A DNA stretch of 24,685 nt from a virus. Each line of letters starts with the position of its first letter. Within the stretch, counting starts at the first letter, position 1. Both the position numbers and the translations under genes were made by a program. Shown piece by piece: positions 1-23,000 of the stretch. The DNA is taken from IMG/VR virus record IMGVR_UViG_3300038701_000237, positions 1-24,685 of that record. One strand, given 5' to 3'. Below the pieces are notes generated by a model that saw only the letters and a program-made list of their open reading frames with translations, did no database searches and was not told where the DNA came from.

Positions 1-2190
1 GACAAAATCTGTAACTACTAGGCTATGTAAACGCTGAACTTTGCCGTTCCGGTCTCGTATAAACGGCATGGTAGGTTTAGCTGTAGCTATGTATGGAAGA
101 CCGTAATAAACAGTTGCACCTGTAGGCGCAATCTCTTTAGATATCTGGTATACATAAGGCCCGGAACCTGTCCGCGTACTAAGTATTTCTATTCCGGGAG
201 TATAACAGCCCTCTCCTTGAACTAAGGTCAAGTCAGGATAAGCAGAAGAGATATAGTTATACTCCGCTGCTACGTCTACCTGTACGCTGTCGTTAAGGTC
301 TAGGCACAGTACGTATCCTAGTATAGGATCGTCACTGTAATCTAAATCCACCTTGCATAAACTATACCCGGCCCCTGTATCAAGAAGAATTACAATCTCT
401 GAGTTATCAAAATACACGTTCTTAACAGGAAAAGGAAATTCCCATTTATGCCAAGCATCTTGAACCTTGGATTGCCCATCCCAAATGTACTGATTAACAA
501 AAATCGTATTTGTTTGCTCTGGACTGTCTGTGGTTACTAAAGTTATATTCATGTTTATAGAAGATACAATAGAGGACACCTGTCCCTTTAGATACCTGTC
601 TTGTAACCGAGTTATAGTGGATGCTGTATTAGCCTCCGTAGAGTTCACAGAGAACTTCTCTTTAATACCGCTGTATGCGCCTTTACTAAAGGGAAATAGT
701 AGAGTCCGGCCTGTATTTACAGGCTTAACGGCCAGTGTACTATCAAACGTAGTTGTCTGCACCATAGATGCATTATCCGGTGTTATGACGTTTGCTCCGG
801 TCACTACAAACTGTGCGTTATTCCCAAATAACACGAGGTCTCTATCAAAAGGTACAATCCACTGTAACAGATTATCGTCCTCTGATGTAGAAAGAATATC
901 AATCGGATCAGTAGCCGTACTTGCTACAACAGACTGAGAATAAAAATCACTCGGTATGTTTGTACGAGACATAATTAAATTAGGACCGCTAACAAAGACT
1001 AAGCGCGATTGAAAGCCGCCCACGTCTCTAATAGTATAACCTACAAAACTAGGAGCAGGATTAGTATTCTCATCTCCGGTCCGTCTTGATTGCCAATCAC
1101 CATGTCGTATGGTAAACTCATTCGTACCTGTCTTAGTCAATGTATACGGCATAGTGTTAAGATCAAAGGCGACTGTTTCAAATGCATTTACCCACTCTCT
1201 CCATACACCGTCTGAACCAAAAGAACTACCTACGGCAGGATCACCGTCTACTTCGTAACGCATCCAGAAATCATCCTCTGTGTCGTCAAGGCCAATAACT
1301 TTAACCAACGTACCATGAGGTGCAAATTCTGCTAGGTCTTCTGTAGACTTAGATATAGAAGTCTGCTTACGCAATATATCGCCACCGGAGCCATCCTCAA
1401 CAGAGAGTTTAATTCCCGGTACACCCTTAATCATTAAAGTGTCACCCGCAGTCTGTATAACCGTACCTGCTACAGGTGTACCTGTCTGTACGATATCGTC
1501 AGGAAGGGCAGTGAAATCAAAGGCTGTGCCGAATACATCAATCTGCGACCGATCAGCACGAAAATCGTAATCATCGGTTAAACTGCCTTGTCCACGTAAG
1601 CCTGCTGCTAGACGGGCAATAATGAAATCTGATGTAGTCTTTGCTGCATCTCCGTCTTCTGTGCCATCTGGACATGTGTAAGACGCGGTTAACTTTGTAC
1701 CATTAGCGTACTCTACGGTTACAGAGTAAGTGTGGCTAAATAAACCGCCTAGACAAGTTACTAAGCCTATATCTGTAATCACCTCGTCTTGGGCAGTTGT
1801 GTTAGTAGGGTCTTGTAAAACTACTTTGTCCCTATTAACAATATAAACTACATTGTCGTAAGTGTAGGCAGACATATCATCGCCTATATAAGTCAATGCA
1901 TCGTCTTCTACAACTAGGTTAGATAAATTACCATCTTCGTCAATAATAATAAGCTGTCCTGCTTTATAGCCGATCTGGTAATCGTTGTCTTCCACAGATA
2001 AATTCATAAATTTGAAGTCTGTATCTATGTCCAGTGTGCTCACGTACTTACTTCCGGGTCTGGTTGATAGACCTAGAACAACATCAGAAAGCATATTTAT
2101 CTGTTCTGTAAGTTGACCGTCATTCCGTATATGTGCAGGCTGTTGACTTACTCCTTGAAGAAGAGAGCCTAAACTACCGTGGTCCGCCAT
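1..2190 (-). CDS. Tail tubular protein B (T7 gp12-like), partial, runs off left edge
   Basis: A reading frame of 730 codons starts with ATG at 2190 and has no stop before the window edge, so the C-terminus is missing. T7 gp12 is 794 residues, so probably only a short piece is lost. The N-terminus reads MADHGSLGSLLQGVSQQPAH, and the 'LLQGVSQQP' start followed by a GQ..EQ.N segment is the hallmark of podoviral tail tubular protein B. In this family it forms the nozzle of the short tail and binds fibres. The rest is acidic and rich in Thr, Val and Gly, as expected for beta-rich nozzle domains. The start overlaps the TtpA stop as TAATG, with GGAG upstream, so the pair is translationally coupled. 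Family call is firm; the true end is unseen. Confidence 0.92.
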   Translation of the reverse strand, partial: MADHGSLGSLLQGVSQQPAHIRNDGQLTEQINMLSDVVLGLSTRPGSKYVSTLDIDTDFKFMNLSVEDNDYQIGYKAGQLIIIDEDGNLSNLVVEDDALTYIGDDMSAYTYDNVVYIVNRDKVVLQDPTNTTAQDEVITDIGLVTCLGGLFSHTYSVTVEYANGTKLTASYTCPDGTEDGDAAKTTSDFIIARLAAGLRGQGSLTDDYDFRADRSQIDVFGTAFDFTALPDDIVQTGTPVAGTVIQTAGDTLMIKGVPGIKLSVEDGSGGDILRKQTSISKSTEDLAEFAPHGTLVKVIGLDDTEDDFWMRYEVDGDPAVGSSFGSDGVWREWVNAFETVAFDLNTMPYTLTKTGTNEFTIRHGDWQSRRTGDENTNPAPSFVGYTIRDVGGFQSRLVFVSGPNLIMSRTNIPSDFYSQSVVASTATDPIDILSTSEDDNLLQWIVPFDRDLVLFGNNAQFVVTGANVITPDNASMVQTTTFDSTLAVKPVNTGRTLLFPFSKGAYSGIKEKFSVNSTEANTASTITRLQDRYLKGQVSSIVSSINMNITLVTTDSPEQTNTIFVNQYIWDGQSKVQDAWHKWEFPFPVKNVYFDNSEIVILLDTGAGYSLCKVDLDYSDDPILGYVLCLDLNDSVQVDVAAEYNYISSAYPDLTLVQGEGCYTPGIEILSTRTGSGPYVYQISKEIAPTGATVYYGLPYIATAKPTMPFIRDRNGKVQRLHSLVVTDFV

Positions 2191-2816
2191 TAATAACTCC
2201 CATGTCCTAACTGAGCACGAGTATCTGTAGTAGAGGAGTAATAACCTCTTCCTCCCTTTCCCGTCCTACGGTTTATAAATGCAGTATATGCTGGACTACT
2301 AAACCAATTAGTATCCTGCATTTTTATATTCATGTTGATTAGCGCGTATTCTTTAGCTTCTGCTAAGGCGCGATAATTATCTAGCTTACGTTGTCCTCCG
2401 TCTGCATCTAAAAAGTATTCATATCTTGCTTTAGCACGAATGAATTGATATGCGGTAGGAGGAAGATCAGATAAGTCTAGTTGAGTTACAAGAATACACT
2501 GTACCTCTTTATTAATAATAGATGTGTTATTATCCGTATCGAACAGATATTGTCCACGAATGGCATAATTATTTTGTCCATCTACGGGATCACATGTAAG
2601 GGTATTTGCAGGCACAAGTACTCGGCCATCTGTATTAGGGAGTAATGTAGTAATACTTGTATTAAACCATAGAGACATTGTAGAAAACTCTTCTAAAACA
2701 TCTTCAAGTATATTATTTGCTTTTATGTAGCTGGGGTGGCGGCTGTCTGATGCCGACAGTGCTGCCGTACCTGTCGTAGCAAGCATAGCGTTAATTAAAC
2801 GAATACGTGTCGTCAT
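2190..2816 (-). CDS. Tail tubular protein A (T7 gp11-like)
   Basis: A 208-residue protein, close to the 196 of T7 gp11. It begins MTTRIRLINAMLATTGTAAL, the usual N-terminus of the family ('R...IN.ML...G'). A helical segment of the 'A..IL......S..LWFNT' type follows, and a Tyr/Phe/Arg-rich 'IRAKARYEYF' stretch lies near residues 125-135. In the family it forms the gatekeeper ring between portal and nozzle. The gene lies between capsid and TtpB exactly as in T7 and phiKMV. A GAAAGG ribosome site precedes the ATG. The upstream gap carries the capsid terminator and a second hairpin, so its transcript must come from read-through of the terminator or from a start inside the gap. Confidence 0.93.
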   Translation of the reverse strand: MTTRIRLINAMLATTGTAALSASDSRHPSYIKANNILEDVLEEFSTMSLWFNTSITTLLPNTDGRVLVPANTLTCDPVDGQNNYAIRGQYLFDTDNNTSIINKEVQCILVTQLDLSDLPPTAYQFIRAKARYEYFLDADGGQRKLDNYRALAEAKEYALINMNIKMQDTNWFSSPAYTAFINRRTGKGGRGYYSSTTDTRAQLGHGSY

Positions 2817-2831
2817 GTTAGTGCCTTTCTT

Positions 2832-2888
2832 TGTTAGTGGTGTAGTTCCTACGTGGAGAGTACGATTTACAGAACCACACTACAAACA
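2832..2888 (-). repeat. Imperfect inverted repeat between capsid terminator and TtpA
   Basis: Two 17-base arms at 2832-2848 and 2872-2888 are complementary at 14 positions, plus one G-U pair if transcribed leftwards, with a 23-base loop. The element lies just downstream of the capsid terminator and ends about 15 bases before the TtpA start codon. It could be an RNase III-type processing hairpin or a structure that affects TtpA translation. Only the base pairing is seen; the role is inferred. Confidence 0.5.
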
Positions 2889-2919
2889 AGAAAGGCCCTG
2901 CTCCCGAAAGAGCAGAGCC
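2882..2919 (-). terminator. Intrinsic terminator after the major capsid gene (T-phi-like)
   Basis: On the minus strand, GGCTCTGCTC pairs with GAGCAGGGCC (plus positions 2910-2919 and 2894-2903) to give a 10-bp stem with one G-T pair and the loop TTTCGG. The T-rich run TTTCTTGTTTG follows at 2893-2883. It begins 7 bases after the capsid stop codon. Its place directly after the capsid gene matches the single late terminator of T7, which lowers expression of the tail genes relative to capsid. Termination by the phage enzyme is inferred from the position and shape. Confidence 0.87.
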
Positions 2920-2926
2920 AATAACA

Positions 2927-3895
2927 TTAGGCCTTACGGATTGCGTAAGACGTGTCGGAGCGGTTAACACCCGCACCATATGATAGCCAGCTATCAATGA
3001 ACCATTGCTTCTCAACTTTGTCAAAGTAAACATCTGACGTAAGTGGAATAGTCTCACCAACTAGGATGGACTTAGGATGCATAATAAGGGCTGTAACATT
3101 TGCCTCTGCCGCAGAAACGTCATAGAAGTTACTGTTAGTAGCGTTAGACAGAATGTGGCCTGTAATAGCCTCCTGAGGAAGACGATTAGTCATAACAATC
3201 GGAACACCTTTGAGTGTCATAACCTTACCGTCTGCAAAGTCACCATTAGAAGATGAGAAATCACGAGACAATAGCTTATCGTTGTTCATAAGAACATCGT
3301 ACTGTGTAGGATTAACGAAGATTGCGCACTCGTCTGTGTCAATGTCTTGAAGCTCGTACTGGACGATGCCAGCAGCAATAGCCTCATACAAAGCATCCGG
3401 ATCAAGCTCATCGCCAGCGGCTGCTAATGTAGTAGTTGTACCGGGGCCAAACGCGCCGTTAAGCGTATCTTGGTTAGTTGTAGCAGATGATTTCACTGCT
3501 GCAATAAGCAAGCTCTCGTCGAAGTATTTACCTAGGTTCTTACCGTGATCTTCACCAAGCTCTTTACGAACATTAAAGTCACTTTGGAAAGTGTTAAGGA
3601 GTGATTGATTATCACGGGCCAATACAACGGTATCAACTGTGACAGACACTTTGCCCTGAGGGGTAGGTGTCGCAGGTGGACGGACGCCCGGTGTTAGACC
3701 AACAATAGAAGTCTTACCGATACGACGATCAACCAATGTATCCGTACCACGTACAGGACGCACGTTTACGAATTTACGCATCATAGAGCGTTTTACGAAT
3801 TGACTGTCAACGACGCCGCCGAAGTGGTCAATAAGGTCAGCACGGTCCTGATCGGATAGGTGTGTGCTGTCTGATGGGATATTAATTCCAGACAT
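2927..3895 (-). CDS. Major capsid protein (T7 gp10-like)
   Basis: A 322-residue protein, near the 345 of T7 gp10A. It is recognised as a T7-type HK97-fold capsid protein by its position between scaffold and TtpA and by its content: an N-terminal 'VRPVRGTDTLVDRRIGKTSI' strand region, a 'GKNLGKYFDESLL' spine-helix region near residue 120, and 'CAIFVNPTQYDVLMNNDKLL' in the central domain, where such capsids discuss strand and helix of the A domain. It forms the icosahedral shell. The start ATG at 3895 is preceded by AGAAAG. It is followed at once by a strong terminator, consistent with the highest late expression. No alternative frameshifted form (as gp10B) is apparent. Confidence 0.93.
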   Translation of the reverse strand: MSGINIPSDSTHLSDQDRADLIDHFGGVVDSQFVKRSMMRKFVNVRPVRGTDTLVDRRIGKTSIVGLTPGVRPPATPTPQGKVSVTVDTVVLARDNQSLLNTFQSDFNVRKELGEDHGKNLGKYFDESLLIAAVKSSATTNQDTLNGAFGPGTTTTLAAAGDELDPDALYEAIAAGIVQYELQDIDTDECAIFVNPTQYDVLMNNDKLLSRDFSSSNGDFADGKVMTLKGVPIVMTNRLPQEAITGHILSNATNSNFYDVSAAEANVTALIMHPKSILVGETIPLTSDVYFDKVEKQWFIDSWLSYGAGVNRSDTSYAIRKA

Positions 3896-3936
3896 ATTAT
3901 ATCTTTCTGTGTTTTTGGCATTAGCCAGTTATAGGC

Positions 3937-4755
3937 TTAAATGCCTTGTTTACGACCCGCTGCACGGGCTGCTTTAATACGGTCAACAGCTTTCTGATCG
4001 CCTGCTGCATGTGCTGCATCAAGTTGCTCAACAAACTCTGCTCGTGTAATAGGCTGTATAGCCGGGGCCGCGCCGCCTTTAGAAGGCTCAACACGTTTGG
4101 TTCCTGCTGTGATAGCAGTGTTTTTAGGGTCTGCGTTAAACAGTTCCGTAATCTCTTGAACAGCAAATCGTGCTGCTGCACCACCTGCGTCAATCAACCC
4201 CGCGTACTCGGAAATATCCGTACCGGATGTTTCTGCCCACGTTGTCAACTTGTTCCAAGCTTCTTCTCCACCAGCGGCTTCATATACTACTTGCTTAATA
4301 GCACTGTTTTTCTCGGCAGTCTCTTGGATAAATCCTTTGATACCTACTAAGATAAGAGAGGCCTTAGCTTTACCAACTTTAGCTTCTAATGCTACTTGGT
4401 CAATCTTTGTTGCATCTCCTGCAACTACCGCGTCATACAATAGAGCTTTTGCGTCTTCTGTACTAATCTCTGCGTTCTGTAGAAGGGTAAGGGTATTGTT
4501 ACCTATTTCTGAGCCTGTATCGCCCCATACGCTTGTATCAAGCTCAGGCTCGTCTGTAGGTTCGTCTGTAGGCTCTTCACCGCCGCTCTCTGTCGGCTCC
4601 TCTGTAGGCTCCTCGCCCTCCTTAGGTTCCTCGTTAGTAGGCTCAATTACCTCGTCCTTAGGCTCCGCCGGAACGTCGGACTCACTAGGGATGGGAGATG
4701 GAGCATCGCCTTCTGCGACTGATCCGGGGATTACTTCTGTAGGTTCGTCTGACAT
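3937..4755 (-). CDS. Capsid assembly scaffolding protein (T7 gp9-like)
   Basis: A 272-residue protein lying between portal and capsid genes, the fixed place of the scaffold gene in T7-type phages. The N-terminal third is very acidic and low in complexity, with Glu-Pro-Thr/Asp repeats (about residues 28-75). The middle is helical, and the C-terminus is basic (ending 'KAARAAGRKQGI'), the part that binds capsid protein in scaffolds. The family guides procapsid assembly and is lost or expelled on DNA packaging. T7 gp9 is 307 residues. The start is set by AGGAGAG seven bases upstream of ATG at 4755. Sequence similarity between scaffolds is low, so the call rests on position plus composition. Confidence 0.85.
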   Translation of the reverse strand: MSDEPTEVIPGSVAEGDAPSPIPSESDVPAEPKDEVIEPTNEEPKEGEEPTEEPTESGGEEPTDEPTDEPELDTSVWGDTGSEIGNNTLTLLQNAEISTEDAKALLYDAVVAGDATKIDQVALEAKVGKAKASLILVGIKGFIQETAEKNSAIKQVVYEAAGGEEAWNKLTTWAETSGTDISEYAGLIDAGGAAARFAVQEITELFNADPKNTAITAGTKRVEPSKGGAAPAIQPITRAEFVEQLDAAHAAGDQKAVDRIKAARAAGRKQGI

Positions 4756-4764
4756 GTATCTCTC

Positions 4765-6345
4765 CTATGTCTGTTGGTTATCTACTGCTGCTTTACCAGC
4801 ATGTTCTGCTACATTACTCTGAGCTTGTTGTTCATTAAGGCGTCCAGCTTCTTCAAGGGCATGTTCTCTAGCCTCTTCCATTTCAGCGGGAGTATTTAAG
4901 AACTCTTTTAGATCAACGGAACGATTAGTAAATATAAAGCTTGCAAATCTCAATGGATTAATAGCTGCCCTAATATCATCAGGAACAGATTGCATCATTT
5001 GTAAATCGCTTATAGCTAATCGAAGATTATCTACTTGACCCTCACGAGATAAGCTTTCAAGGCCTGTAGTAACAAGCACTTCAAATAAGTCTAATGATCC
5101 ATCAACTTCCTTGTTAAAGTCGATCTGCTCTATAGCATAGTCTGCTTCCTTTTGCTGCCATGATAAAGCAAGCTGAGAATATAAGCCGCCATATGAACTC
5201 TCAAGTTCACTAGCAATAAGTCTAATCTCTTCTGCTGTAACACGCTCAGCATCTCGGACGCTGGATAACAAGAATGCTTGTGATAGGTCTTGTTCCCATT
5301 TCTGAATAGCTCCCATCATTACACTTAAGTCGCCGCGCTTCCCTAGCTCTGGTATAGTAATATCGCCCTCGTTTCCGGGGAAGTATGCGCCTCTCGGTGC
5401 TGCATTAAGCTCCGGTATTTGCATAGCAAGCGGTGATCCAGTTTTAACTAAAAACTTAACATCGCATATTACTGCCATAAGGTCAGTAGTTGCATCCGTT
5501 GTTACGTCTAGTTGGTGGAATGTTGCTGCGTGATCTTCTACTAGACCTCTTCCGTAATAGTCGCCACTAGCGAGGTTCCACGTAAGAGGTAGTAGATCAT
5601 AATCTTTCTCTGAAAGGGTTTGATCGTTGTTCAGATTAACACCATCAGCTTCTTGACATACTTTCCATCTTCCGTCAGGAAGCTTGGTATAGTGTGTAAG
5701 TAGAACTACTTCGTCTTTAGCACCTGACTGTCCTTGAAAGGATTTAGTCTGATTTGTCCGTATTAGTTCTTGAAGTTCGGGTGTAAATGTTGCAAATGTT
5801 TTCTTATCATAGAGTACTATTTCAAGGTCATTGCCTTCAATGTCTCTACGAATACCAAAACGATTAACCCCATACATAATTCTCTTACCCGAAGGCATAC
5901 GTCTAATTAGCGCGTTGCCTGTAATGACTAAGTGCTTTGCTGCTTGAATAGCTACGGGACGGTACTCTGTGAGGTTCAGCTTCCTTAGGGCAACTTTCTC
6001 TAGGTTAGAGGTACTTGACCTAACATGCTCTTGTATAACAGATACGTTTTCTTCCCCGTGCTCTTTCTTCAAGTCTAGCAAGGCCTCGGGCGTTAATGCT
6101 ACTGTAAAGAAGGGCCGAGATACAGGAAACAATACGTCAATAAGACGGTTAGCTAAGTGATTAACTAGCCTAGCTCCGATCATCACGCTTCCTTTATCCT
6201 GCTCTTGATTAGAAGAACTAGACACAGGCATTATTGATGGAATAGTCCATCTAGCATATGCCTCAGAGCGCTCAATAAGGTCGCCCTTCTCTGTCTGCAT
6301 TTCTTCCCATATGTCAGAGATGACGTGCATTTTTCTAGTTTGCAT
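4765..6345 (-). CDS. Portal / head-tail connector protein (T7 gp8-like)
   Basis: A 526-residue protein, almost the length of T7 gp8 (536). It shows typical features of the T7 portal: an early 'RSEAYARWTIPSIMP' segment, 'GARLVNHLANRLIDVLFP' near residues 55-72, 'GNALIRRMPSG', 'YYGRGLVEDHAATFHQLD' in the middle, and 'RDAERVTAEEIRLIASELES' near the 'R..ER.TA.EI' motif common to these connectors. The dodecameric portal is the DNA entry channel and tail joint. The C-terminus is helical, Ala/Glu/Gln-rich and acidic. The ATG overlaps the stop of the upstream small gene (TAATG) and has GGAGGG upstream, so it is translationally coupled. Confidence 0.95.
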   Translation of the reverse strand: MQTRKMHVISDIWEEMQTEKGDLIERSEAYARWTIPSIMPVSSSSNQEQDKGSVMIGARLVNHLANRLIDVLFPVSRPFFTVALTPEALLDLKKEHGEENVSVIQEHVRSSTSNLEKVALRKLNLTEYRPVAIQAAKHLVITGNALIRRMPSGKRIMYGVNRFGIRRDIEGNDLEIVLYDKKTFATFTPELQELIRTNQTKSFQGQSGAKDEVVLLTHYTKLPDGRWKVCQEADGVNLNNDQTLSEKDYDLLPLTWNLASGDYYGRGLVEDHAATFHQLDVTTDATTDLMAVICDVKFLVKTGSPLAMQIPELNAAPRGAYFPGNEGDITIPELGKRGDLSVMMGAIQKWEQDLSQAFLLSSVRDAERVTAEEIRLIASELESSYGGLYSQLALSWQQKEADYAIEQIDFNKEVDGSLDLFEVLVTTGLESLSREGQVDNLRLAISDLQMMQSVPDDIRAAINPLRFASFIFTNRSVDLKEFLNTPAEMEEAREHALEEAGRLNEQQAQSNVAEHAGKAAVDNQQT

Positions 6346-6632
6346 TATAGCCCTCCGATAGGACTTGATATTTTAGTGCCGGACTTAGTGGCTCGTCTCT
6401 GTCCCCGCTTTAGAAGGGCGTCTGAGGCTTTACTTGTTCCGAATATCAAGTCTGCGCCTACTTTATTACGTGTTCGGTCTTTAGCTGCTGCCTCTTTAGC
6501 TTGTATCTCTTGTCGCTGATTGGCTGCTGCTGTCTGTTTTCTTTGTTTCTTAGCTTGGCTAATAGAAATTGCGGTATTTGCTGCACCTAATCCTAGGGCG
6601 GCTCCTGCAATGATTGTACTCACTGCTGCCAT
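6345..6632 (-). CDS. Small pre-portal protein, possible virion component
   Basis: A 95-residue protein with a hydrophobic, Ala/Gly-rich N-terminus (about residues 5-25, one possible membrane helix) followed by a very basic, Gln/Lys/Ala-rich coiled region (residues 26-55) and a Ser/Gly/Lys tail. Small proteins of this layout stand just before the portal gene in many T7-type phages (T7 gp6.7 and gp7.3 occupy the same interval and are virion proteins). A similar role in the tail or head interior is inferred only from position. GGAGAC lies upstream of the ATG, and the stop overlaps the portal start. No named family is recognised. Confidence 0.75.
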   Translation of the reverse strand: MAAVSTIIAGAALGLGAANTAISISQAKKQRKQTAAANQRQEIQAKEAAAKDRTRNKVGADLIFGTSKASDALLKRGQRRATKSGTKISSPIGGL

Positions 6633-6633
6633 G

Positions 6634-7050
6634 TTAAGTCTCCTTTAGTATAAGCCTATGGCTATGTTCAACAGGAGAAAATCCAACTCTACGGAGTACC
6701 TTCTCCGCTACGGGATCGCTGTCTTCTAGGGTACACATACGTATCTCGTCTACTCCGTATTCCTTAGCCTCTTTAATGAAGCGAAGTAACAGGGAATATC
6801 CAGAGCTATCTGTAGAGTACCATCCGAGTTCTTGTAGATATACCCAATTACGGAACATATCTGGAACGATCATACCGCCTATGAACCCCTTAGGGGAAAC
6901 AAAGACTACACCGTTTAGGATAAGTTCGGCTACCATAACCTCTGTCTTATCTTGGTCTAACTCAATATCAAAGTGGGCGCTATTGAACTCGTTCACTAGA
7001 TTAATTATATGATCTAGGTCAGTGATCGTAGCTGCCCTTACACCACTCAA
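6634..7050 (-). CDS. GNAT-family N-acetyltransferase
   Basis: A 138-residue protein with the compact GNAT layout: 'VRAATITDLDHIINLVNEFN' (strand 1, helix 1), a 'GGMIVPDMFRNWVYLQELGWY' central strand pair, a 'SSGYSLLLRFIKEAKEYGVDEIRM' segment in the acetyl-CoA-loop/helix position, and a C-terminal 'AEKVLRRVGFSPVEHSHRL' typical of the GNAT final fold ('...GF......'). The classic Q/R-x-x-G-x-G/A loop is weak. GNATs transfer acetyl from acetyl-CoA to amines; the substrate is unknown. The start is a TTG that shares TTGA with the stop of the upstream gene, with GAGAG six bases before it; no in-frame ATG lies earlier. It sits among virion genes, so it may act late or modify a virion protein (inference). 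Confidence 0.83.
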   Translation of the reverse strand: MSGVRAATITDLDHIINLVNEFNSAHFDIELDQDKTEVMVAELILNGVVFVSPKGFIGGMIVPDMFRNWVYLQELGWYSTDSSGYSLLLRFIKEAKEYGVDEIRMCTLEDSDPVAEKVLRRVGFSPVEHSHRLILKET

Positions 7051-7235
7051 AACAACTCTCGTGAGAGCATAGTGTTTAGTTGTTGGCGTATCTGTGCCTT
7101 TTGGAACTCAACTCCCACATCAAAGCGGTCACTGTCTTTTCCAAGCACCTCGGGTGCTAAGGCAATTTTCAATTTATTCAATACGCTTTCCGATATATGG
7201 TTGGTCGGAAGGAAGCGCTGCTCTATCCGGGACAT
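7047..7235 (-). CDS. Hypothetical protein, 62 residues
   Basis: A 62-residue reading frame begins with ATG at 7235 inside the end of the preceding 49-residue gene (13-base overlap) and ends in a TTGA overlap with the acetyltransferase. The protein is charged and helical in its second half ('VEFQKAQIRQQLNTMLSREL'). No family is recognised. Its ribosome site (GGTGA) is weak, so expression would depend on coupling to the upstream gene. It is accepted because it exactly fills the interval between two neighbours. Confidence 0.65.
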   Translation of the reverse strand: MSRIEQRFLPTNHISESVLNKLKIALAPEVLGKDSDRFDVGVEFQKAQIRQQLNTMLSRELF

Positions 7236-7372: not shown

Positions 7373-7440
7373 AGTCTCTCCTACTACAGAACCGTCAACT
7401 CCAAAGGAGCAGGCGTATTCTCTAATAAGGAGGGATTAAG
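7373..7440 (-). other. Gap between RNA polymerase and the late operon
   Basis: This 68-base space holds the 20-base repeat at its upstream end, then on the minus strand a small CTCC-TTT-GGAG hairpin (about 7400-7411) and the ribosome site of the 49-residue gene. It has no T-tract, so it does not look like a terminator. Confidence 0.6.
7421..7440 (-). promoter_or_regulatory. Candidate phage RNA polymerase promoter, copy 1 (20-base repeat)
   Basis: The minus-strand sequence CTTAATCCCTCCTTATTAGA occurs here directly after the RNA polymerase stop codon, and again, base for base, at 12225-12244 after the DNA polymerase stop. The bases on either side differ. Repeated sites of about 20 bases in gaps ahead of gene blocks are how promoters of single-subunit phage polymerases usually appear. 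It does not match the T7 promoter consensus. The promoter role is inferred. Confidence 0.5.
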
Positions 7441-9900
7441 CTACCCAAAAAAGTAATTTGATCTTAAAACCCCGGATAAATCTAGGTTTCCTTTAGGAGG
7501 TAGATCAGGAAGCTCAATGTCATGCCTCTCCTCGTGAACTCTCTTAAAGTCTGCTAAAATATCATACTCGTTATGTAACCTAAAGAATTGGTTACGTATA
7601 GCTAAGTGCAAAGCATCTGTATCAGCAGCGTGTGTGCCGAAATCATCGTGTATCATGGCAAAGCTTATATCGTCCTCGCACTGTGTCATCGCATTAATCG
7701 TCATCATCATGTGACATGCATCGACATGATGCACTAGATTAGGGCTAGAGCCTTGTCTCTGTTTACGTCCGTTTAGCTTATCTGTATAGGTTGCTATGCG
7801 TACCCGAAGCCTGCCGCCTATCTGTGTCTCTATTTGCTTAGATATATACTTCATAGAAGACTGTAGTACAGGGAACCCTAGCGGACTATTGTACTGCATG
7901 GGATGACCTGCTTTAGACAACACAGATGAACACTCCTGTATCCAATCCATAGCTGCTCTGGCCGCAATAACTACCTCGCTTATACTTTCCCATAGAATAG
8001 GGCTTAAGTACAAGGCGTGTTTGAATTGTGTATTATTTGGAAAGGCGTGAGGAAGGTTCTCATGTTGCCAGCTATAAATGCTGGCTGTACAAGACTGTTG
8101 CGTAGAGCCATATGGTAACGTCATCACTGGCTTCTTAGGTAGACCCCTAGGAATTACATTATCTGGTAGGCTAGTATACCAGTTGACTGCACCACCTTCT
8201 CTGAATGAGGCTAGTTCTTTAACCTTCTCAAGACAGGTATCTGCAACATCTTGGTAAATGTCCTCTGGAGTTTCCGAAGGAATAAGGTTGACCGCTTTTC
8301 CTCCGACTGCATCAAGGAGCATCGCAGAGAAGTGTTGTAGGCCGTTACATGAACCGTCAAGCCCAATGGGCAAGTGAGACACGAATGTCTCCGGATACGG
8401 TTGTCTGGACATGGCCCTATACTCGAAACACCACGCAAGGAACTGATACGGCTTATCTGCCTCGGCCCACACGCTACGGTGTGTAATCGGGTCTTCCCCC
8501 ACTGCCTGCCACTTATCTGCATTTTCATCAATAAATCTAACTCTGTCATCGTAGCTTCCTTTGTCATTTCCGTATTTGTTAGCGCCATGTACCTTAAGCC
8601 AATACATTCCCCGCTTACCTATCTTCTTTCCTTTACTGAACTGGATGAGGCCCTTGGACTGATCTGTACCCTGTGGATTAAGGCCACTAGATGTACAGTA
8701 TACCCGTCCTCGGAAGTCACATTGATATACGTACCAGAACTCGTCCACAGCCTTCATCTCATTTGCTATACGTATAGTGCGGACAAGAGATAGGTTCTTA
8801 GCTACACGTTCTTTCTCAAGGGTATGTAATTCTCGTGTCTCTGCTTTCCAGTTATTGAATAGCTCTAGTCTAGGATCACCTTCTGGTATAGCATCCACTT
8901 TATCTTCGTCTGCTAACGGACAGGCAGGGAATACATAGGGTTCTGATCTAGGCATACCACATCCTAGGTTCTTATTCCATACCTCTTGCATCACCTCTAG
9001 GACTTTTGTGTTTACTGTCCATGCTGTACTTTGCATAGCGTTAATAGCAGATAATACTTCTGGCATCTCTGCATTATTGTACAAATCTGTTCGTAAACTA
9101 GAAGAGCCCCGTACCTTAATTAGAGGCGTTATACGACGCATACCCGGACTGTAATAGCCACCGTCTGATACACTTGTCCACGGATCAGGTTCTACTATAC
9201 AAGGCATACGGTCAGGGCTAGTAAGCTCTACTACATCGTTATGTTTAGTGATCCAATCAAGGCACTGCGCTGTTGGGACAACTCTCGCAGTCCCAGACTT
9301 TCCGCCTTTTCCTCTTTCTTGTGATTGTTCAACAAGGTCGCATACTTCCATAAGAAGAGATATAACCAAAGCACCTACCCCGAAGGTGTCAATATCAGAC
9401 CAGCTATTCCATAACATGCCTTTGTCGGTGGACTTAGCCGCGAGTACCCGCCTCTTGTGTTTATAAGACGTTGTGCCTCTTCTTTCAAAGTCTCTTATGA
9501 GGGTGTCATAATACTCTTTGTATTCCTCTTGGAATTTCATAAACCGTAACTCATCTTCGCAACTACGGCCAATTTTTTTACATACTGTTGCTAGGCTAGC
9601 TCCGTCATTAAACACTGCGCCGATAACAGACCGAAGAGCGAACAAGGCTACCTTGTCCGTCTCAACGGTGTCTAGGAGTTTAGCGTATTTATTACGTCTG
9701 CGTCCCTCTGGATGCTTTCCAGCGAGGTATGCAGACAAGTGCTCTGATATAGTCAATACGTATCCATGTAGCATACGGCTACCTGCTGACGTATCTTGGG
9801 GACGATCTTGCACAGCTTTCTGCTGCTGATTACGAAAACGGTTAATTCCCCGGTTCATCATCTCATCTTCCCATCTAAGCTGTTCTGCAATAGTTGACAT
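7441..9900 (-). CDS. Single-subunit DNA-dependent RNA polymerase (T7 gp1 family)
   Basis: An 819-residue protein, close to phiKMV RNA polymerase and shorter than T7 (883). Catalytic residues are all visible: Asp515 in 'DGSCNGLQH' (T7 Asp537), Lys589 and Tyr597 in 'KKPVMTLPYGST' (T7 Lys631 and Tyr639), a 'NLVHHVDACHMM' segment, and Asp752 in 'HDDFGTHAAD' (T7 Asp812). 'QCDFRGRVYC' precedes the palm. It ends ...NYFFG, comparable to the aromatic C-terminal foot of T7. It would transcribe the late genes from phage promoters. The gene lies after the replication genes and directly before the structural block, as in phiKMV, instead of at the early end as in T7, so the host polymerase must transcribe the upstream genes. 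Its ATG overlaps the endonuclease VII stop (TAATG). Confidence 0.97.
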   Translation of the reverse strand: MSTIAEQLRWEDEMMNRGINRFRNQQQKAVQDRPQDTSAGSRMLHGYVLTISEHLSAYLAGKHPEGRRRNKYAKLLDTVETDKVALFALRSVIGAVFNDGASLATVCKKIGRSCEDELRFMKFQEEYKEYYDTLIRDFERRGTTSYKHKRRVLAAKSTDKGMLWNSWSDIDTFGVGALVISLLMEVCDLVEQSQERGKGGKSGTARVVPTAQCLDWITKHNDVVELTSPDRMPCIVEPDPWTSVSDGGYYSPGMRRITPLIKVRGSSSLRTDLYNNAEMPEVLSAINAMQSTAWTVNTKVLEVMQEVWNKNLGCGMPRSEPYVFPACPLADEDKVDAIPEGDPRLELFNNWKAETRELHTLEKERVAKNLSLVRTIRIANEMKAVDEFWYVYQCDFRGRVYCTSSGLNPQGTDQSKGLIQFSKGKKIGKRGMYWLKVHGANKYGNDKGSYDDRVRFIDENADKWQAVGEDPITHRSVWAEADKPYQFLAWCFEYRAMSRQPYPETFVSHLPIGLDGSCNGLQHFSAMLLDAVGGKAVNLIPSETPEDIYQDVADTCLEKVKELASFREGGAVNWYTSLPDNVIPRGLPKKPVMTLPYGSTQQSCTASIYSWQHENLPHAFPNNTQFKHALYLSPILWESISEVVIAARAAMDWIQECSSVLSKAGHPMQYNSPLGFPVLQSSMKYISKQIETQIGGRLRVRIATYTDKLNGRKQRQGSSPNLVHHVDACHMMMTINAMTQCEDDISFAMIHDDFGTHAADTDALHLAIRNQFFRLHNEYDILADFKRVHEERHDIELPDLPPKGNLDLSGVLRSNYFFG

Positions 9901-10289
9901 TACTTTCCTTTAAGCTGTGCTCGTTTCTTCCGTGCCTTTGCGTTACGTGCTAGGCGCTTCTCTTGTTCTGTCTTGTGAGTAGGGTGGAGGTATCTACCGT
10001 GCTTAGGTTCTACGTGTCTTTCTAAGTACTCTACAAGACGCCTAAGAAAAGAAAGTACGTTATCTTTTCCTACGCATCTCGTAGCAAGATTAAATATCTT
10101 ACCTTCCATACCGTTACAATTAAGACACAGCACGTCGCGTATGTAGCCTGTCCTATGATCGTGATCTAATGCAGGCTTCTTTCCTTTAGTTCCTTTCATA
10201 GACTTCAAACAAAGAGGACATAAGTGTTCTTGCTTTACTAAGAGATGGTTACGTACTGCTGGTAGTTGACTGCTCTTTAGCCTTTTCAT
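9900..10289 (-). CDS. Recombination endonuclease VII (T4 gp49 family)
   Basis: A 129-residue His-Me-finger nuclease. It has the zinc site Cys24-Pro-Leu-Cys27 ... Cys55-Leu-Asn-Cys58, and the catalytic segment 'ALDHDHRTGYIRDVLC' with Asp42, His43, then Asn59 after the second Cys pair, matching Asp40/His41/Asn62 of T4 endonuclease VII. The family cleaves four-way junctions and branched DNA and trims replicative concatemers for packaging. The basic C-terminus ('KARKKRAQLKGK') would bind DNA. It replaces T7 endonuclease I (gp3) functionally, as in phiKMV-type phages. The ATG at 10289 with AGGAGAGG upstream sits inside the end of the exonuclease gene (41-base overlap). Confidence 0.93.
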   Translation of the reverse strand: MKRLKSSQLPAVRNHLLVKQEHLCPLCLKSMKGTKGKKPALDHDHRTGYIRDVLCLNCNGMEGKIFNLATRCVGKDNVLSFLRRLVEYLERHVEPKHGRYLHPTHKTEQEKRLARNAKARKKRAQLKGK

Positions 10290-11214
10290 TCACCTCTCCT
10301 AACCAATCTAACACACTCTCGCCTTTAACACGGCGCATCCACAGAAGCTCCATATCTCCTACTAAGGCTTTATTCCATGTTGTAGGTTCCTGTGTTCTAT
10401 AGTCAATCCATTCATGTTGGCTCTCTGACCACAGTTTCTTGATAAGATTAAAGCAATCTATATCTGTCTTACAGTCTGCAAGAAGCTTTTCAGTAGTTAC
10501 TGCACCACAGTTCATAGACTTTCCGTCTTTTTCACGAGTGTACTTAGGAAGCCCTGCGATGTTATCTGCCGCATCTCCCATTAGACATTGCGCCCAAAAG
10601 AACTTGGTTCCCCATCCTAGTAACTTTGCCGCAGACGCACTACGATCAATCCAGATATGTCCAAATGTATCCTCTGAGTTGTCTACAATCGTCTCTGTAT
10701 CGAAGTCCCATAATAGTCCGGGGGCCATACGTAGGTCTTTGTCTTTAGATACAATGACGGACAACTCCGGTGTACCCGCTCTACAAGCGGCATAATTAGC
10801 CTGTGTCATACCGTCATCTGCTTCTTGGTCAAGATGAACAATACTATTCAATTTTTCACCAATGAAATGCCTAATTGCATCTAAATCAGCAGGTTTAGCT
10901 TTATCCTTGCGGTTAGCTTGATACGGTTTAGTTACTGCCAAAGCCTCGCGCCCACCTTTGTCTGATCCGGGAGGTGTAATATGTGCTACGTAATCTGTAG
11001 CCCCTACTTGCTTCATATGCATCTTTAGAAGGGAAATTACTTGCTCCTTCTTCTGCGCAAGGCTACGCATAGGGGCAATACCATCCAACTCATCCTTGCG
11101 ATTAGCGGCGGCGATATACGCCATGAAATCTGCATCAATGTGTGCTACCCTGCCTTCTACGGGAGCTAAGTAATTGTATTCAGGATTTTGACCGGGAAGA
11201 TTATCCCCGGTCAC
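10249..11214 (-). CDS. 5'-3' exonuclease (T7 gp6 / flap nuclease family)
   Basis: A 321-residue protein (T7 gp6 is 300). Metal-binding motifs of the PIN/FEN fold are present in order: 'HIDADFMAYIAA' near residues 25-36, 'DQEADDGMTQANY' near residue 120, 'VIVSKDKDLRM' near residue 150, and 'MGDAADNIAGLPK' near residue 215. It removes RNA primers and degrades host DNA to mononucleotides in T7. The start is uncertain: the frame opens after a TAG at 11250-11248, and the best start is GTG at 11214 with AGAGG eight bases before. No ATG comes before residue 31, after the first metal-binding Asp, so a GTG start is likely. It lies 25 bases after the SSB gene. Confidence 0.92.
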   Translation of the reverse strand: MTGDNLPGQNPEYNYLAPVEGRVAHIDADFMAYIAAANRKDELDGIAPMRSLAQKKEQVISLLKMHMKQVGATDYVAHITPPGSDKGGREALAVTKPYQANRKDKAKPADLDAIRHFIGEKLNSIVHLDQEADDGMTQANYAACRAGTPELSVIVSKDKDLRMAPGLLWDFDTETIVDNSEDTFGHIWIDRSASAAKLLGWGTKFFWAQCLMGDAADNIAGLPKYTREKDGKSMNCGAVTTEKLLADCKTDIDCFNLIKKLWSESQHEWIDYRTQEPTTWNKALVGDMELLWMRRVKGESVLDWLGEVNEKAKEQSTTSST

Positions 11215-11239
11215 TCCAAAGGCCTCTAGGACGCTTATA

Positions 11240-12115
11240 CTATAGCCCTAAGTCAGCAAGAACATCGTCTTGCGCGGGTTTCTCTTCTACTTCTGGAGAG
11301 CTATCTTCAATAGTCTCGGGAAGCTTTGTCTCTTCCTTAGGTTCCTCTTTAGGCCCCTCAGACAGTTCTTTGGTAATATCGTCTCCGCCTGCTAAGAAAG
11401 CTTCGAGAGGCGATCCTACGAAGTCTACGGCGGCAAGGCAAGTCTGTTGAATGAAGTTCTTACTTACTTCTGTATCAACACCATCTACTTTACGAGTGTA
11501 CGTCCCGTCAATAAAGATGCTCTCCCATTGCTCTATACTAGGACTTTCCCACAAGAGCAGGCGAGGTGCAACGGTAGCCGCAGGAACCTCAATCGGCGTA
11601 GAGGTTTCTGATACTGGATCAAATGTCTCTGGCGCACCGATGTTCCATCCGTTCTCGTCGTCGAGGTTAACCCATGTGGTTTTCTTACCATCTTTCTCAG
11701 TCACGTTATGTGTGACTTTAACAAGGAAACCTTCGCCTAACATTTCAGCCATGTGCTTAATATCTTGGCGACCTGCAATCATCTTAGTAAGTAGTTTATA
11801 AAATTTAGCTTTCTCATTAGATGATACTTTGATCTTAATATCTACAGTATTTGTACGGCGTTTTAACTCACCATCTTTCTCATACTCTGCGATATGTTTT
11901 TTACCATTCAACTCAAAGGTAAGCCGAGCTTCAAGTGCTGGTGGTTTATCTTTGCCTTTGTAGGGACGCTGTGGCTGTTTCCCTAATTCAACATAGCCAA
12001 CAAAACGCGCAGTAGTCCATCCCTCGGGTGCTACAGTGCGTTCAAAGCCTTTAATGGCCTCGGTCTGATCTGTAACGTCCTTAGCTGATTTAGCTTGGTC
12101 TAGTAGTGTACTCAT
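11240..12115 (-). CDS. Single-stranded DNA-binding protein (T7 gp2.5-like role)
   Basis: A 291-residue protein with a globular, Lys/Thr-rich N-terminal two-thirds ('GWTTARFVGYVELGKQPQRP' opening strands; 'ARLTFELNGKKHIAEYEKDG') and a long Glu/Pro/Asp-rich C-terminal tail (from about residue 245) ending 'DDVLADLGL'. A disordered acidic tail with a hydrophobic tip is the standard partner-binding end of phage and bacterial SSBs. It sits between DNA polymerase and exonuclease, as expected for a replication SSB. The alternative is a structurally different SSB unrelated to gp2.5. AGGAGA precedes the ATG, and the gene opens after the A+T-rich gap that holds the candidate origin. Confidence 0.8.
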   Translation of the reverse strand: MSTLLDQAKSAKDVTDQTEAIKGFERTVAPEGWTTARFVGYVELGKQPQRPYKGKDKPPALEARLTFELNGKKHIAEYEKDGELKRRTNTVDIKIKVSSNEKAKFYKLLTKMIAGRQDIKHMAEMLGEGFLVKVTHNVTEKDGKKTTWVNLDDENGWNIGAPETFDPVSETSTPIEVPAATVAPRLLLWESPSIEQWESIFIDGTYTRKVDGVDTEVSKNFIQQTCLAAVDFVGSPLEAFLAGGDDITKELSEGPKEEPKEETKLPETIEDSSPEVEEKPAQDDVLADLGL

Positions 12116-12239
12116 ATTTATCTCCTGTGTTATGAGTATTAATTATATCTTTAGTGTATACTACTATAGTATAATAAATAGGTATAATAGTATGTTTTAT
12201 AATCCTAATCATATTTCTCCCTTATCTAATAAGGAGGGA
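12116..12239 (-). other. A+T-rich gap, candidate replication origin
   Basis: Seventy-seven of the 100 bases at 12121-12220 are A or T, the most A+T-rich stretch between genes in the window. On the minus strand it follows directly after the 20-base repeat at 12225-12244. It includes the palindrome TACTATAGTA and several TATA runs. In T7 the primary origin is a phage promoter followed by an A+T-rich segment, so the layout is suggestive. No gene of useful length fits here. Confidence 0.45.
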
Positions 12240-12244
12240 TTAAG
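12225..12244 (-). promoter_or_regulatory. Candidate phage RNA polymerase promoter, copy 2 (20-base repeat)
   Basis: Identical over 20 bases to the site at 7421-7440. It covers the last bases of the DNA polymerase gene (the TAA stop is inside the repeat) and points towards the SSB gene. On the minus strand it runs on into ATAAGGGAGAAATA, where TAAGGGAGA resembles the initiating end of T7-type promoters; this extension is not shared by copy 1, so it may be chance. Confidence 0.5.
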
Positions 12245-14513
12245 ACGGTTTCCAGTGATGCAGGTCTAACATGTTTGGACCGACTTCTGCATCAACCGGG
12301 AACGGTACAGCACAATCATAATCGAAGTACTTTTTCAACATCTGCGGTACAGCCTCCATAATCCTTTTGGCCCCTCTCATGACCTCATCTACCACCTCGG
12401 GCTGCATATCAAACCAGACGCAGTCATGAACCGTGTTGACAAGCAGAGCACGTCCTCCGAAGTTATCGGTAGATACAAACCATCTCCAAAGGACACCCAA
12501 AGCCATTTGGACGATTTCTCCGCCTGTACCTTGAATTGGATAGTTTTTAAGTTCGGGTGGTGCGAACGTGTCCATAATACCATCGCGGTCTCTAAGCCAC
12601 TTAGGTGCATCATAGGAGCGGAAACTATAAGTTGTTCCTGTAGGGGCCTGCCAAGAACCTCTTCTAAAAGTTCTATAGCCTCTTTCTCCGTCTCGGAAAG
12701 CAACAGCCATATGGTTAACTTCTTTCTCCACCTCTTGATTAAATTTAACGACATCGGGATATAATAGCTCCTCTGCTATAATTAGTGCTTCTACGTCTTC
12801 CTTAGGTATACCCGTCGCTAGAGCGATTGCGGACGCACCTGCTCCGTAAGCTCTCTGGAACGAGAACTCCTTAACTCCTGTACGTCTTGGCTTCCATGTA
12901 CCGTGGTCTGGATGGTTCTCATCCTTACACCATAGAAGCGCATCCTCATAGGATATACCAAACTTATTTGATACGCGCTTACAGTGAAAGTCTACCCGTG
13001 CTCTCAAGTCGTTTACAAGGTTAGTGTCTCCTGTCAACATACCCTGTACAACTACTTCTAGCTGAGAGTAGTCAATCTCTCCTACGACCCCATCAGCAAA
13101 CCTGCTTATAAACATAGCCTTAACCCTACTAGGAGCACGAGGAATGTTTTGGCAGTTAGGATTAGAGCTAGATAGGCGGCCCGTTACTGTACTACTGTGG
13201 TTAAGCATATGATGGATAATGTGAGTAACAGGATCAACGCAGGTAAGCATACCTTTGTACTCTCCATTCTTATCCTTAACAGCGTAGTATGTACCTATCT
13301 CCTTATCTAGCTTCGTCTTCAATGACATAGCTTTCAAGAAGGGTACTCCTGTGCCGCCAAGTAGGATAACCGTATCGCTGTCTGTAGAGTACAAAGGATT
13401 TCCTGCACCGTCTGTGGTAGCAAGCTTCTTAATATCTAGCTCGACAGGATCGACATATCCGGGAAGCTCCCAAAAGAAGTCTTGGTATTTAACCTTAAGC
13501 TCTCCCGGTACATCTACGTTCTTGAATTTACCCTGTCCAACTTTCTTTCCTGATTTGTACGTGTCCTGTCCTGCATAAACACCGTACTCGTCTTTATCAC
13601 CGTCATCAAGGGTATCCGGATCACAGGCCTCGTTTCCAAACAAGGGCCACTTAGCCTTAGCCTTCTTACGGGCAAGTTGCCCTGTAGCTTCATCAAGGTA
13701 AGTAGTACGTTTCTTGTAGCGTATAGTACCGCCATAGATAATAGCAGACTTATGCGTACCTGATCCCCAAGAGAAGCCTACTTCCTCAGGAATGTCTTTA
13801 AGGTACTCTTCTAGTTCTTTAGTGGCTTTGGATAACTCTTCGTTAAGCCGCTTCAAATCAGTATTAGCTGTCTGTACGCATACCTTAATTCCATTGAACT
13901 CCATCTCAGTAGTTGCACATAACCCGTCCATACGGACTTCTATCATCTTCAACATACCTTGAGATTTAGCAAGCTCTAGCTGTCCTAGGTAAATAAGCTC
14001 CGTATTACCAATGTCGCCGCTGTTACGATGTTCACTCTCCGTACCTACTAAGTAATCTTTAATAAGCTCTGGATCAATGTCAGAGGTCTGGACGCCTGCG
14101 TTCCAAAGCTCTTTCATACCATCAACCTTCTTACGTCCGCCATAGCTCTCAATGATTTGATCCATCGAGTTCATATGGAATTTACTCTGCATGTGTCGTA
14201 GTAGATATTCCGCATACTGCGTACACCATACTCTCCCACCGCGCTTGTAGAACGCCTTTAGGTCAGGACTATTGTTTGCCATCTCATAGAGTAAATCGAA
14301 CTTAATGTTATGGCCGACAAGGACGCTAACGTCATCGTCAATCTTTAGGTAGTTGTCACCTGTCTTGCCGGGGTAGAACTCATGTGAGCAAGCGACATGG
14401 CCCTCTTTCTTCCATCCCCGCGCAACAACGTAGTTCTCAGGGTGAAACGGATTAGCTTTCCTCTTGTGGGACTTGTGTATCTGTGTCTCGCTGTCGAATA
14501 TCATATACACCAT
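12240..14513 (-). CDS. DNA polymerase, family A (T7 gp5 type, with 3'-5' exonuclease)
   Basis: A 757-residue replicative polymerase (T7 gp5 is 704). The exonuclease domain opens with 'IFDSET' (Exo I, D-x-E) and 'VGHNIKFDL' (Exo II). The polymerase domain shows motif A 'GEIDYSQLE' with Asp481, the O-helix 'RRTGVKEFSFQRAYG' with Lys and Phe552 at the position of E. coli Pol I Phe762, 'NYPIQGTGGE', and motif C 'VNTVHDCVWFD' with Asp697. A Phe at the 762 position is common among lytic phage polymerases. The ATG at 14513 has GGGAG eight bases before it and lies within the end of the upstream 80-residue gene (62-base overlap). ATG codon 4 is a less likely start. Helicase, primase and SSB genes lie nearby. 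Confidence 0.97.
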   Translation of the reverse strand: MVYMIFDSETQIHKSHKRKANPFHPENYVVARGWKKEGHVACSHEFYPGKTGDNYLKIDDDVSVLVGHNIKFDLLYEMANNSPDLKAFYKRGGRVWCTQYAEYLLRHMQSKFHMNSMDQIIESYGGRKKVDGMKELWNAGVQTSDIDPELIKDYLVGTESEHRNSGDIGNTELIYLGQLELAKSQGMLKMIEVRMDGLCATTEMEFNGIKVCVQTANTDLKRLNEELSKATKELEEYLKDIPEEVGFSWGSGTHKSAIIYGGTIRYKKRTTYLDEATGQLARKKAKAKWPLFGNEACDPDTLDDGDKDEYGVYAGQDTYKSGKKVGQGKFKNVDVPGELKVKYQDFFWELPGYVDPVELDIKKLATTDGAGNPLYSTDSDTVILLGGTGVPFLKAMSLKTKLDKEIGTYYAVKDKNGEYKGMLTCVDPVTHIIHHMLNHSSTVTGRLSSSNPNCQNIPRAPSRVKAMFISRFADGVVGEIDYSQLEVVVQGMLTGDTNLVNDLRARVDFHCKRVSNKFGISYEDALLWCKDENHPDHGTWKPRRTGVKEFSFQRAYGAGASAIALATGIPKEDVEALIIAEELLYPDVVKFNQEVEKEVNHMAVAFRDGERGYRTFRRGSWQAPTGTTYSFRSYDAPKWLRDRDGIMDTFAPPELKNYPIQGTGGEIVQMALGVLWRWFVSTDNFGGRALLVNTVHDCVWFDMQPEVVDEVMRGAKRIMEAVPQMLKKYFDYDCAVPFPVDAEVGPNMLDLHHWKPS

Positions 14514-15898: not shown

Positions 15899-16088
15899 AT
15901 AATTCTCCTAATTTCTCATATAGACGTATAGCATCCTCTTTATCTAATATAAAGGCATCTTGGAAAGGATCAGTAAGAATCATATGCAATCCAATTCTTT
16001 CAGACACAGGGAAATATACAATTTCTATTTCATCTTCTGGTATTACCAAATCAATTCCTCTAAACACTTCTACAGGTTTATTATTCAT
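15891..16088 (-). CDS. Hypothetical protein, 65 residues
   Basis: A 65-residue acidic protein that starts right at the helicase stop (TAA then ATG) and overlaps the phosphoesterase start by 8 bases. It has alternating hydrophobic strands ('EIEIVYFPVSERIGLHMIL') and a C-terminal helix ('KEDAIRLYEKLGELYG'), so a small alpha/beta fold is likely. No family recognised. It is kept because it exactly joins two real genes with coupled starts. Confidence 0.75.
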   Translation of the reverse strand: MNNKPVEVFRGIDLVIPEDEIEIVYFPVSERIGLHMILTDPFQDAFILDKEDAIRLYEKLGELYG

Positions 16089-22394: not shown

Positions 22395-22980
22395 TATAAA
22401 TCTCCATGTCCCACGAATGAAACTCATGTAAGAACCGCATAACATGGGAAGTACATTCCACAGCCTTCTTGTCTTTAGCTGCGTTTACATGTCCTACATC
22501 TACTCCTAACAGTAGAAATGCGTCTTCGTTCAGATGCTCATTCCTTAACAACTGATCTGCACCCTTAGCCCATAAAATCTGTGATTTCTTTTGAGAAGGT
22601 CCGATCCATTTCTGACAATCACGAGGACGTAAATCTAATCCCGGTATACCGGAGGATACAAAACACGTTGGGTCATGTAACCACTCTTCAAAAGACTTAT
22701 TAGACGCCGCTTTAACTCTAGCTACCCACTTAGCACACGTCCTCGGCTTTATGTTTGGATTACGCATGTAGAAATACATAGACTTAAGGCGCTCAAAAGG
22801 ATGACGTACCTGACAAACTTTACGGAAATGATTATAACCAAACGGTATACCATCTGCTTCCATGTGTCGATAAATAAGAAACGCTTGTGGATACTCTTTC
22901 AGTAAAGCGTCTCGCAAACTAGTAGTTCCTGTACGAGGAGGCTGTAGTACAATGGTTTGTGTTTCTGGTATGATAATCAT
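22387..22980 (-). CDS. Sulfotransferase-like protein
   Basis: A 197-residue P-loop-related protein. The 5'-phosphosulfate loop is 'QPPRTGTTSLRDAL' (residues 13-26), after a beta strand, and the 3'-phosphate site is 'VRHPFERLKSMYFY' (Arg59 and Ser67), the two signature regions of PAPS-dependent sulfotransferases. They move sulfate from PAPS to hydroxyl or amino groups of carbohydrates or small molecules. The protein is short for the family (usual about 250-300), but the core is present. It is followed by membrane and lipoprotein genes, so the target may be an envelope glycan (inference). GGAG precedes the ATG within a 17-base repeat also found at 23697-23713. Confidence 0.85.
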   Translation of the reverse strand: MIIIPETQTIVLQPPRTGTTSLRDALLKEYPQAFLIYRHMEADGIPFGYNHFRKVCQVRHPFERLKSMYFYMRNPNIKPRTCAKWVARVKAASNKSFEEWLHDPTCFVSSGIPGLDLRPRDCQKWIGPSQKKSQILWAKGADQLLRNEHLNEDAFLLLGVDVGHVNAAKDKKAVECTSHVMRFLHEFHSWDMEIYNE

Positions 22981-22983
22981 GCT

Positions 22984-23000
22984 TCAACTCCTATTGCTCT
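22984..23000 (-). repeat. 17-base direct repeat, copy 1
   Basis: On the minus strand AGAGCAATAGGAGTTGA, identical to 23697-23713. Here it holds the ribosome site of the sulfotransferase gene and the end of a 13-codon frame. In the other copy the same bases form the end of the HhH-GPD gene and the ribosome site of the next gene. Together the copies flank the two-gene cassette at 23029-23693. Confidence 0.8.

Follow-up and report, generated by a model that had tools for sequence, protein, structure and literature searches.

A 20-base repeat at both polymerase gene ends of a phiKMV-type phage: probable promoters for the phage's own RNA polymerase

Directly after the RNA polymerase (RNAP) gene of Klebsiella phage KP34 lies a promoter that has been proven in vitro (PMC6834552), and the same holds for Pseudomonas phage VSW-3, whose layout was likened to that of KP34 by its authors (PMC9624206); both were located by reasoning like that used here. 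In LUZ100, the phage promoter phi1 lies upstream of the RNAP gene and transcribes the polymerase's own gene; it was mapped by RNA 5' ends, and positive feedback was proposed (PMC10134795). phiKMV carries an annotated putative phage promoter at 13979-14015, upstream of its hypothetical-protein, exonuclease, endonuclease VII and RNAP genes. Here, we describe a 20-base repeat, CTTAATCCCTCCTTATTAGA, in IMG/VR virus record IMGVR_UViG_3300038701_000237 (positions 1 to 24,685, the whole of which we call the window), a 24,685-base fragment of an Autographiviridae phage with the phiKMV-type gene order, in which the RNAP gene comes after the DNA polymerase and replication genes. Both copies are very probably promoters for this phage's own single-subunit RNAP, copy 1 boosting the polymerase gene and copy 2 driving the virion genes. 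Because of the KP34, VSW-3, phiKMV and LUZ100 precedents, the repeat is a known kind of element, not a new kind, with a new sequence; no earlier description of these promoters was found in the open literature, subscription papers being outside the search. The two copies, assigned from the exact repeat, from a register based on 12 promoters and from matches in place in close relatives, are as follows.

12225-12244, minus strand: predicted promoter copy 1, spanning −17 to +3 and covering the stop codon of the DNA polymerase gene
7421-7440, minus strand: predicted promoter copy 2, spanning −17 to +3 and lying immediately past the RNAP stop codon

The repeat is exact on the minus strand at both places, as the original prediction had it. 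The stop codon TAA of the DNA polymerase gene (12242-12240) lies inside copy 1, and copy 2 begins with the base that follows the stop codon TAG of the RNAP gene (7443-7441). The view that the repeat is far from chance also held: no further copy with up to three mismatches was present in the window or in 100 dinucleotide shuffles, and only one of 200 order-3 Markov windows contained any exact same-strand 20-mer repeat, wherever placed. The flanks had been said to differ immediately; this is not so on the 3' side, where the likeness continues to 22 of 23 bases (GATAA and GAGAA). No exact match to CTTAATCCCTCCTTATTAGA was found in 2.9 million viral contigs, so this exact sequence is known from this phage only. 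The sequence CTTAATCCCTCCNTATNAGA had one match, in a 145-kb contig; no recognised relative of the window genes lies near it, and the match is probably due to chance. A weak third site at 15940-15958 was discarded, as it was not prominent in the motif scan and only the two copies stood above shuffles. The scan revealed no promoter-like site before the capsid gene in the window, though soil relatives have one.

The repeat reads as TTAAT, CCCTC, CTTATT and AGA, that is, an AT-rich box, a specificity block, an AT-rich melting segment and a purine start, and it fits the T7 promoter frame from −17 to +3 with CCCTC at −11 to −7. Transcription is predicted to start at the A at 12227 in copy 1 (alternatively, the G at 12226) and at the A at 7423 in copy 2 (alternatively, the G at 7422). 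The register with A at +1 (CTTAATCCCTCCTTATT/AGA; the slash marks the start site) aligns better than that with G at +1 for 10 of the 12 compared promoters. The rejected register (TATTA/GA) was better for one L020 copy, that behind its RNAP gene, and neutral for VSW-3. The start context of T7 phi2.5 is TATT/AG, like that of the window.

Compared with the T3 and T7 promoters, the element has the same length and layout, and with T3 it has in common an identical CCCTC at −11 to −7. It differs from T3 in one extra base (T at −12) between the AT box and CCCTC, and position −5 is T, not C as in the T3/T7 class; the T7 and T3 gene order also differs, with an early RNAP gene. The repeat had been called unlike T7, which is correct for its sequence and not for its frame or for the block common with T3. 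The KP34 promoter (TAATGTTACAGGAGTA/GGG) and the VSW-3 promoter (TTAATTGGGCCACCTATA/GTA) resemble the window in that the RNAP gene follows DNA-metabolism genes, the promoter comes straight after the RNAP stop, and an AT box, a variable block and the start lie within one 16-18 base frame. In contrast to the window, they have another middle block in place of CCCTC and a start of the form TA/G rather than TATT/AG, and none of the reported strong-promoter copies of KP34 is at the DNA polymerase end. The phiKMV promoter is at the place of copy 1. LUZ100 phi1 is like copy 1 in lying upstream of the RNAP gene and in the feedback role proposed for both, while LUZ100 has the T7-type gene order and a different motif.

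We then turn to relatives. The window has no DNA-level relative in the phage collection, and its nearest annotated isolates have RNAPs of at most 47% identity (MedPE-SWcel-C56, Paracoccus phages ParMal1 and ParKuw1, Agrobacterium phage Atu_ph02 and Rhizobium phages); IMG/VR holds 20 loci at 59-66% identity. Nine records, the window counted, have both gene ends and an RNAP of 60% identity or more, and in all of them a motif is common to the DNA polymerase stop and the RNAP stop. The best word common to both ends beat all of the roughly 200 random windows of its own record in every case (p = 0.005 each, the floor of this test). The same test gave p values of 0.005-0.01 for Atu_ph02, RHEph02, Paso and SI01. 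The motif is CTTA[AG]TGCTTCTCTATAGAG or CTTA[AG]TGCTTCTCTATAGAGA in L006, L008, L010, L014 and L017, CTTAA[TC]GCTTCACTATAGAG in L015 and CTTAA[TC]GCACACCATAG in L003, while L016 has related but unequal sequences at the two gene ends. The L008-group motif TTAATGCTTCWCTATAGAGA occurs in eight of the 2.9 million viral contigs, all within this group. The marine phages ParMal1, ParKuw1 and SWcel-C56 (~45-47% RNAP identity) carry a copy after the RNAP gene and others, and none at the DNA polymerase end; this latter site is therefore not universal.

The original prediction called for further copies co-oriented with the genes, and more complete relatives have them, at gene ends or in intergenic regions. 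Seven complete or near-complete isolate genomes contain three to six copies each with up to four mismatches, Atu_ph02 and RHEph02 having six predicted sites each. Every copy is on the coding strand, and the opposite strand has none. Their locations are the early region, the DNA polymerase and RNAP gene ends, the regions ahead of the capsid and tail-fibre genes, and the vicinity of the genome end. In L047, the 42-kb contig of L008, ~800 bases near the genome end (1190-2005) lack a forward gene and hold two degenerate copies near 1282 and 1501; here the late end probably joins the early region. Behind the RNAP genes of L005 and L019, a promoter-like sequence lies within a long hairpin-like inverted repeat (CCCCTCTCTCAAG...CTTGAGGAGGGG in L019).

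The two copies change together. Among nine distinct genomes with both sites, which include L008 and L015, themselves very alike, the two copies agree on average at 17.8 of 20 positions within a genome and at 8.4 between genomes. The true within-genome pairing is the best of 362,880 possible pairings, and no other reaches it. A single trans-acting reader in each genome produces concerted change of this kind. The proposed reader is the phage RNAP.

7441-9900, minus strand: single-subunit T7-type RNAP, 819 amino acids (Pfam RNA_pol 2.4e-107, RPOL_N)
7795-7845, minus strand: codons of the predicted specificity-loop beta-hairpin, residues 686-702 (alignment to T7 and structure model)

This protein is homologous to T7 RNAP over nearly its full length (E = 1.3e-115). 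Its AlphaFold model, built from an alignment of the loci, has a mean predicted local distance difference test (pLDDT) score of 87.6 and matches T7 RNAP in Foldseek with a template modelling (TM) score of 0.84-0.86. In the model, beta strands are formed by residues 686-691 and 697-702. In an alignment to T7 read by hand, Q689, E691, R699 and R701 correspond to T7 R746, N748, R756 and Q758; the automatic family alignment confirms the assignments of Q689, E691 and R699 and has a gap at the Q758 place. The residue at the T7 N748 place is thus Glu (E691) in the window polymerase and Asp in T3, and E691 goes with CCCTC here as D748 goes with CCCTC in T3. When T7 RNAP was evolved toward T3 promoter use, N748D was present in all surviving clones (PMC4633624).

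Across the relatives, the residue at the 748 place is associated with the promoter bases. One promoter was called behind each RNAP gene with a model restricted to positions −7 to +2, which left the upstream block out of the call. In this first run, C at −12 to −9 went with Asp or Glu at the 748 place, and G with Arg, Lys or Asn (permutation p = 4e-4, unadjusted); for example, the L008 polymerase has Arg at the recognition place and the promoter TGCTTCTC. A second run, with eight registers re-anchored on repeats or experiments and weak calls dropped, gave p = 2e-5, with a difference peaking at −11/−10. From these sequence comparisons, promoter and polymerase appear to change together in the relatives, and the association lends good but not decisive support to the promoter reading. 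The proposal that the copies are promoters for the encoded RNAP thus gained support from the same-place motifs, from the concerted change within genomes and from a variable block that appears to vary with the recognition residue.

Several points pull in the other direction. The re-anchoring of the second run was chosen after the first result was known; the automatic calls had misplaced L005, L019, L028, L030 and KP34, which were anchored or excluded in that run. The registers come from a motif model and may be off by one base. The association weakened when ancestry was taken into account: on a tree built without the specificity loop, four to five of seven independent contrasts were as expected, none was opposite and two to three were ties (sign test p = 0.06-0.125). 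L023, in which Asp goes with GG, is an exception to the residue-base rule. In a reversed-motif control with up to four mismatches, there was no match in five genomes, one in RHEph02 and four in Paso, so that single weaker copies in these two may be chance matches. The window is a partial genome, and because the record is a fragment, copies elsewhere in the genome of this phage cannot be counted; a whole-genome count is possible only in relatives. No transcript 5' ends and no in vitro results came to light for this phage or its close relatives. Finally, structured RNA just downstream of copy 2 and in some relatives leaves a slight chance of an added RNA-level role.

This last point bears on the first of the other explanations, that the repeat acts in RNA as a processing hairpin, a terminator or a stability element at the ends of the two polymerase-gene transcripts. 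Copy 1 can pair into a small hairpin with the following ATAAGGGAG, structured leaders follow copy 2 (window 7376-7420, z = −2.3) and the L003 promoter (L003:9560-9605, z = −5.6), and the T3 annotation has RNase III sites beside promoters. The two window copies, however, fold differently, the L008 and L015 copies have no common fold, neither copy shows a terminator-like site or a match to an Rfam family, and what is kept within genomes is the sequence, not the pairing pattern. We therefore consider an RNA element very improbable. A hairpin just downstream of the promoter behind the RNAP gene is seen in L016 as well (after 12451), and the L003 and L016 leaders have the loop CGTAGCCAATCTGCG in common; this loop matches 40 contigs and was dropped as a specific feature.

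Any protein acting in trans could use repeats at the starts of operons, and the copies might then be host RNAP promoters or sites of another phage regulator. Predicted sigma-70-like sites miss both copies and are no commoner than in shuffles. The motif retains the layout of T7 promoters, and its bases appear to vary with the residue by which the RNAP would recognise them. The library scans recognised no further DNA-binding regulator in the window, in which several open reading frames (ORFs) are of unknown function. This explanation is even harder to sustain than an RNA element. There is next to no chance that the plus-strand TCTAATAAGGAGGGATTAAG is the Shine-Dalgarno sequence of unannotated plus-strand genes or the minus-strand CCTCCTTA an anti-Shine-Dalgarno mimic: AAGGAGGG is a strong ribosome-binding sequence, but neither copy is closely followed by a start codon with a real frame, and the AAGGAGG complement is absent at the same places in relatives (CTTCTCTATAGAG, CACACCATAG, CTTCACTATAG), which refutes it as a general explanation. 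A chance or historical duplication, such as a copied gene-end segment without function, finds a parallel in one exact 18-base repeat elsewhere in the window and is just as implausible, being refuted by the relatives, which pair different sequences at the same two places as copying by descent only would not.

The repeat, its conserved placement, its concerted change within genomes and its association with the recognition residue are thus evidence at the level of sequence, from which we infer binding, start site, strength, timing and feedback at the two copies. If the copies are promoters for the phage RNAP, the host polymerase would first read the early and middle genes and part of the RNAP gene. 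The phage polymerase would then bind the 20-base element. If it works as T7 RNAP does, the TTAAT box (~−16 to −12) would be read by its AT-rich recognition loop, and the CCCTC block (−11 to −7) by its specificity hairpin, which has Glu at the T7 N748 place. The TTATT segment would melt, and RNA would begin at the A, or the next G, of TATT/AGA. Copy 1 would drive the phrog_862 gene, the exonuclease and endonuclease VII genes and the polymerase's own gene, a position that suggests positive feedback on the polymerase gene, and copy 2 would drive the structural genes.

All recognised genes of the window are on the minus strand, in the order primase, ligase, helicase, exonuclease, DNA polymerase, phrog_862 protein, exonuclease, endonuclease VII, RNAP, portal, scaffold, capsid, tube and nozzle. 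The genes next to the two copies are listed below.

12240-14513, minus strand: DNA polymerase (family A) gene, its end inside copy 1 (library matches)
9900-12115, minus strand: block downstream of copy 1, leading into the RNAP gene (ORFs and library matches)
11240-12115, minus strand: phrog_862 protein (library match, function unknown there)
10249-11214, minus strand: exonuclease (library match)
9900-10289, minus strand: endonuclease VII (library match)
1-7235, minus strand: late block downstream of copy 2, with small unknown ORFs, an acetyltransferase-like protein, portal, scaffold, major capsid, tube and nozzle (ORFs and library matches)

The nozzle gene is incomplete, as it is cut at the record end. 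The DNA polymerase, RNAP, exonuclease and endonuclease VII had been named correctly; the product of 11240-12115 had been taken for a single-stranded DNA-binding protein, a name that the libraries do not bear out. Just behind copy 1 on the minus strand, a small open frame with a GGGAGA leader runs from ~12211 into the start of the phrog_862 gene. In addition, a near-identical 25-base leader (TAGAGCAATAGGAGTTGA...ATGA) stands at 22977-23001 and at 23690-23714 on the minus strand, each time ahead of the start codon of an early gene, and looks like a duplicated translation-start region.

The region behind copy 1 is also the most AT-rich of the record.

12137-12216, minus strand: most AT-rich 80 bases (84% A+T, from an A+T scan), ~10 bases downstream of copy 1; candidate origin element

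L016 and L003 are like the window in that the 80 bases richest in A+T of each locus begin within ~50 bases after the copy, and other relatives come close to this. The annotated primary origin of T3 is a 77% A+T stretch just after the promoter phi1.05, and the window likewise presents a predicted promoter followed by an AT-rich non-coding stretch. Tandem promoters are found at the DNA polymerase end in L015 (6779-6847) and L003 (4642-4684); the T7 promoters phi1.1A and phi1.1B are a similar tandem pair after the RNAP gene. Judged by its layout, copy 1 with the AT-rich stretch fits a T7-like transcription-primed origin. We put forward only tentatively, as a proposal more apt to fail than to hold, that copy 1 may be both a promoter and the primary transcription-primed replication origin and that one-residue switches at the 748 place (Glu or Asp versus Arg, Lys or Asn) may track C-to-G changes at −11/−10 across many uncultured phages. 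If true, the origin of phiKMV-type phages would lie in the gap that follows the DNA polymerase gene and would be coupled to the promoter that also amplifies the RNAP.

Promoters of phiKMV-type polymerases are known for few phages. Looking right after the DNA polymerase and RNAP stops yields candidate polymerase-promoter pairs across alphaproteobacterial and marine phages, most of them uncultured. Across this natural series of pairs, one contact residue apparently changes in step with promoter bases, and the pairs may provide orthogonal transcription parts as well as a test of how such pairs evolve.

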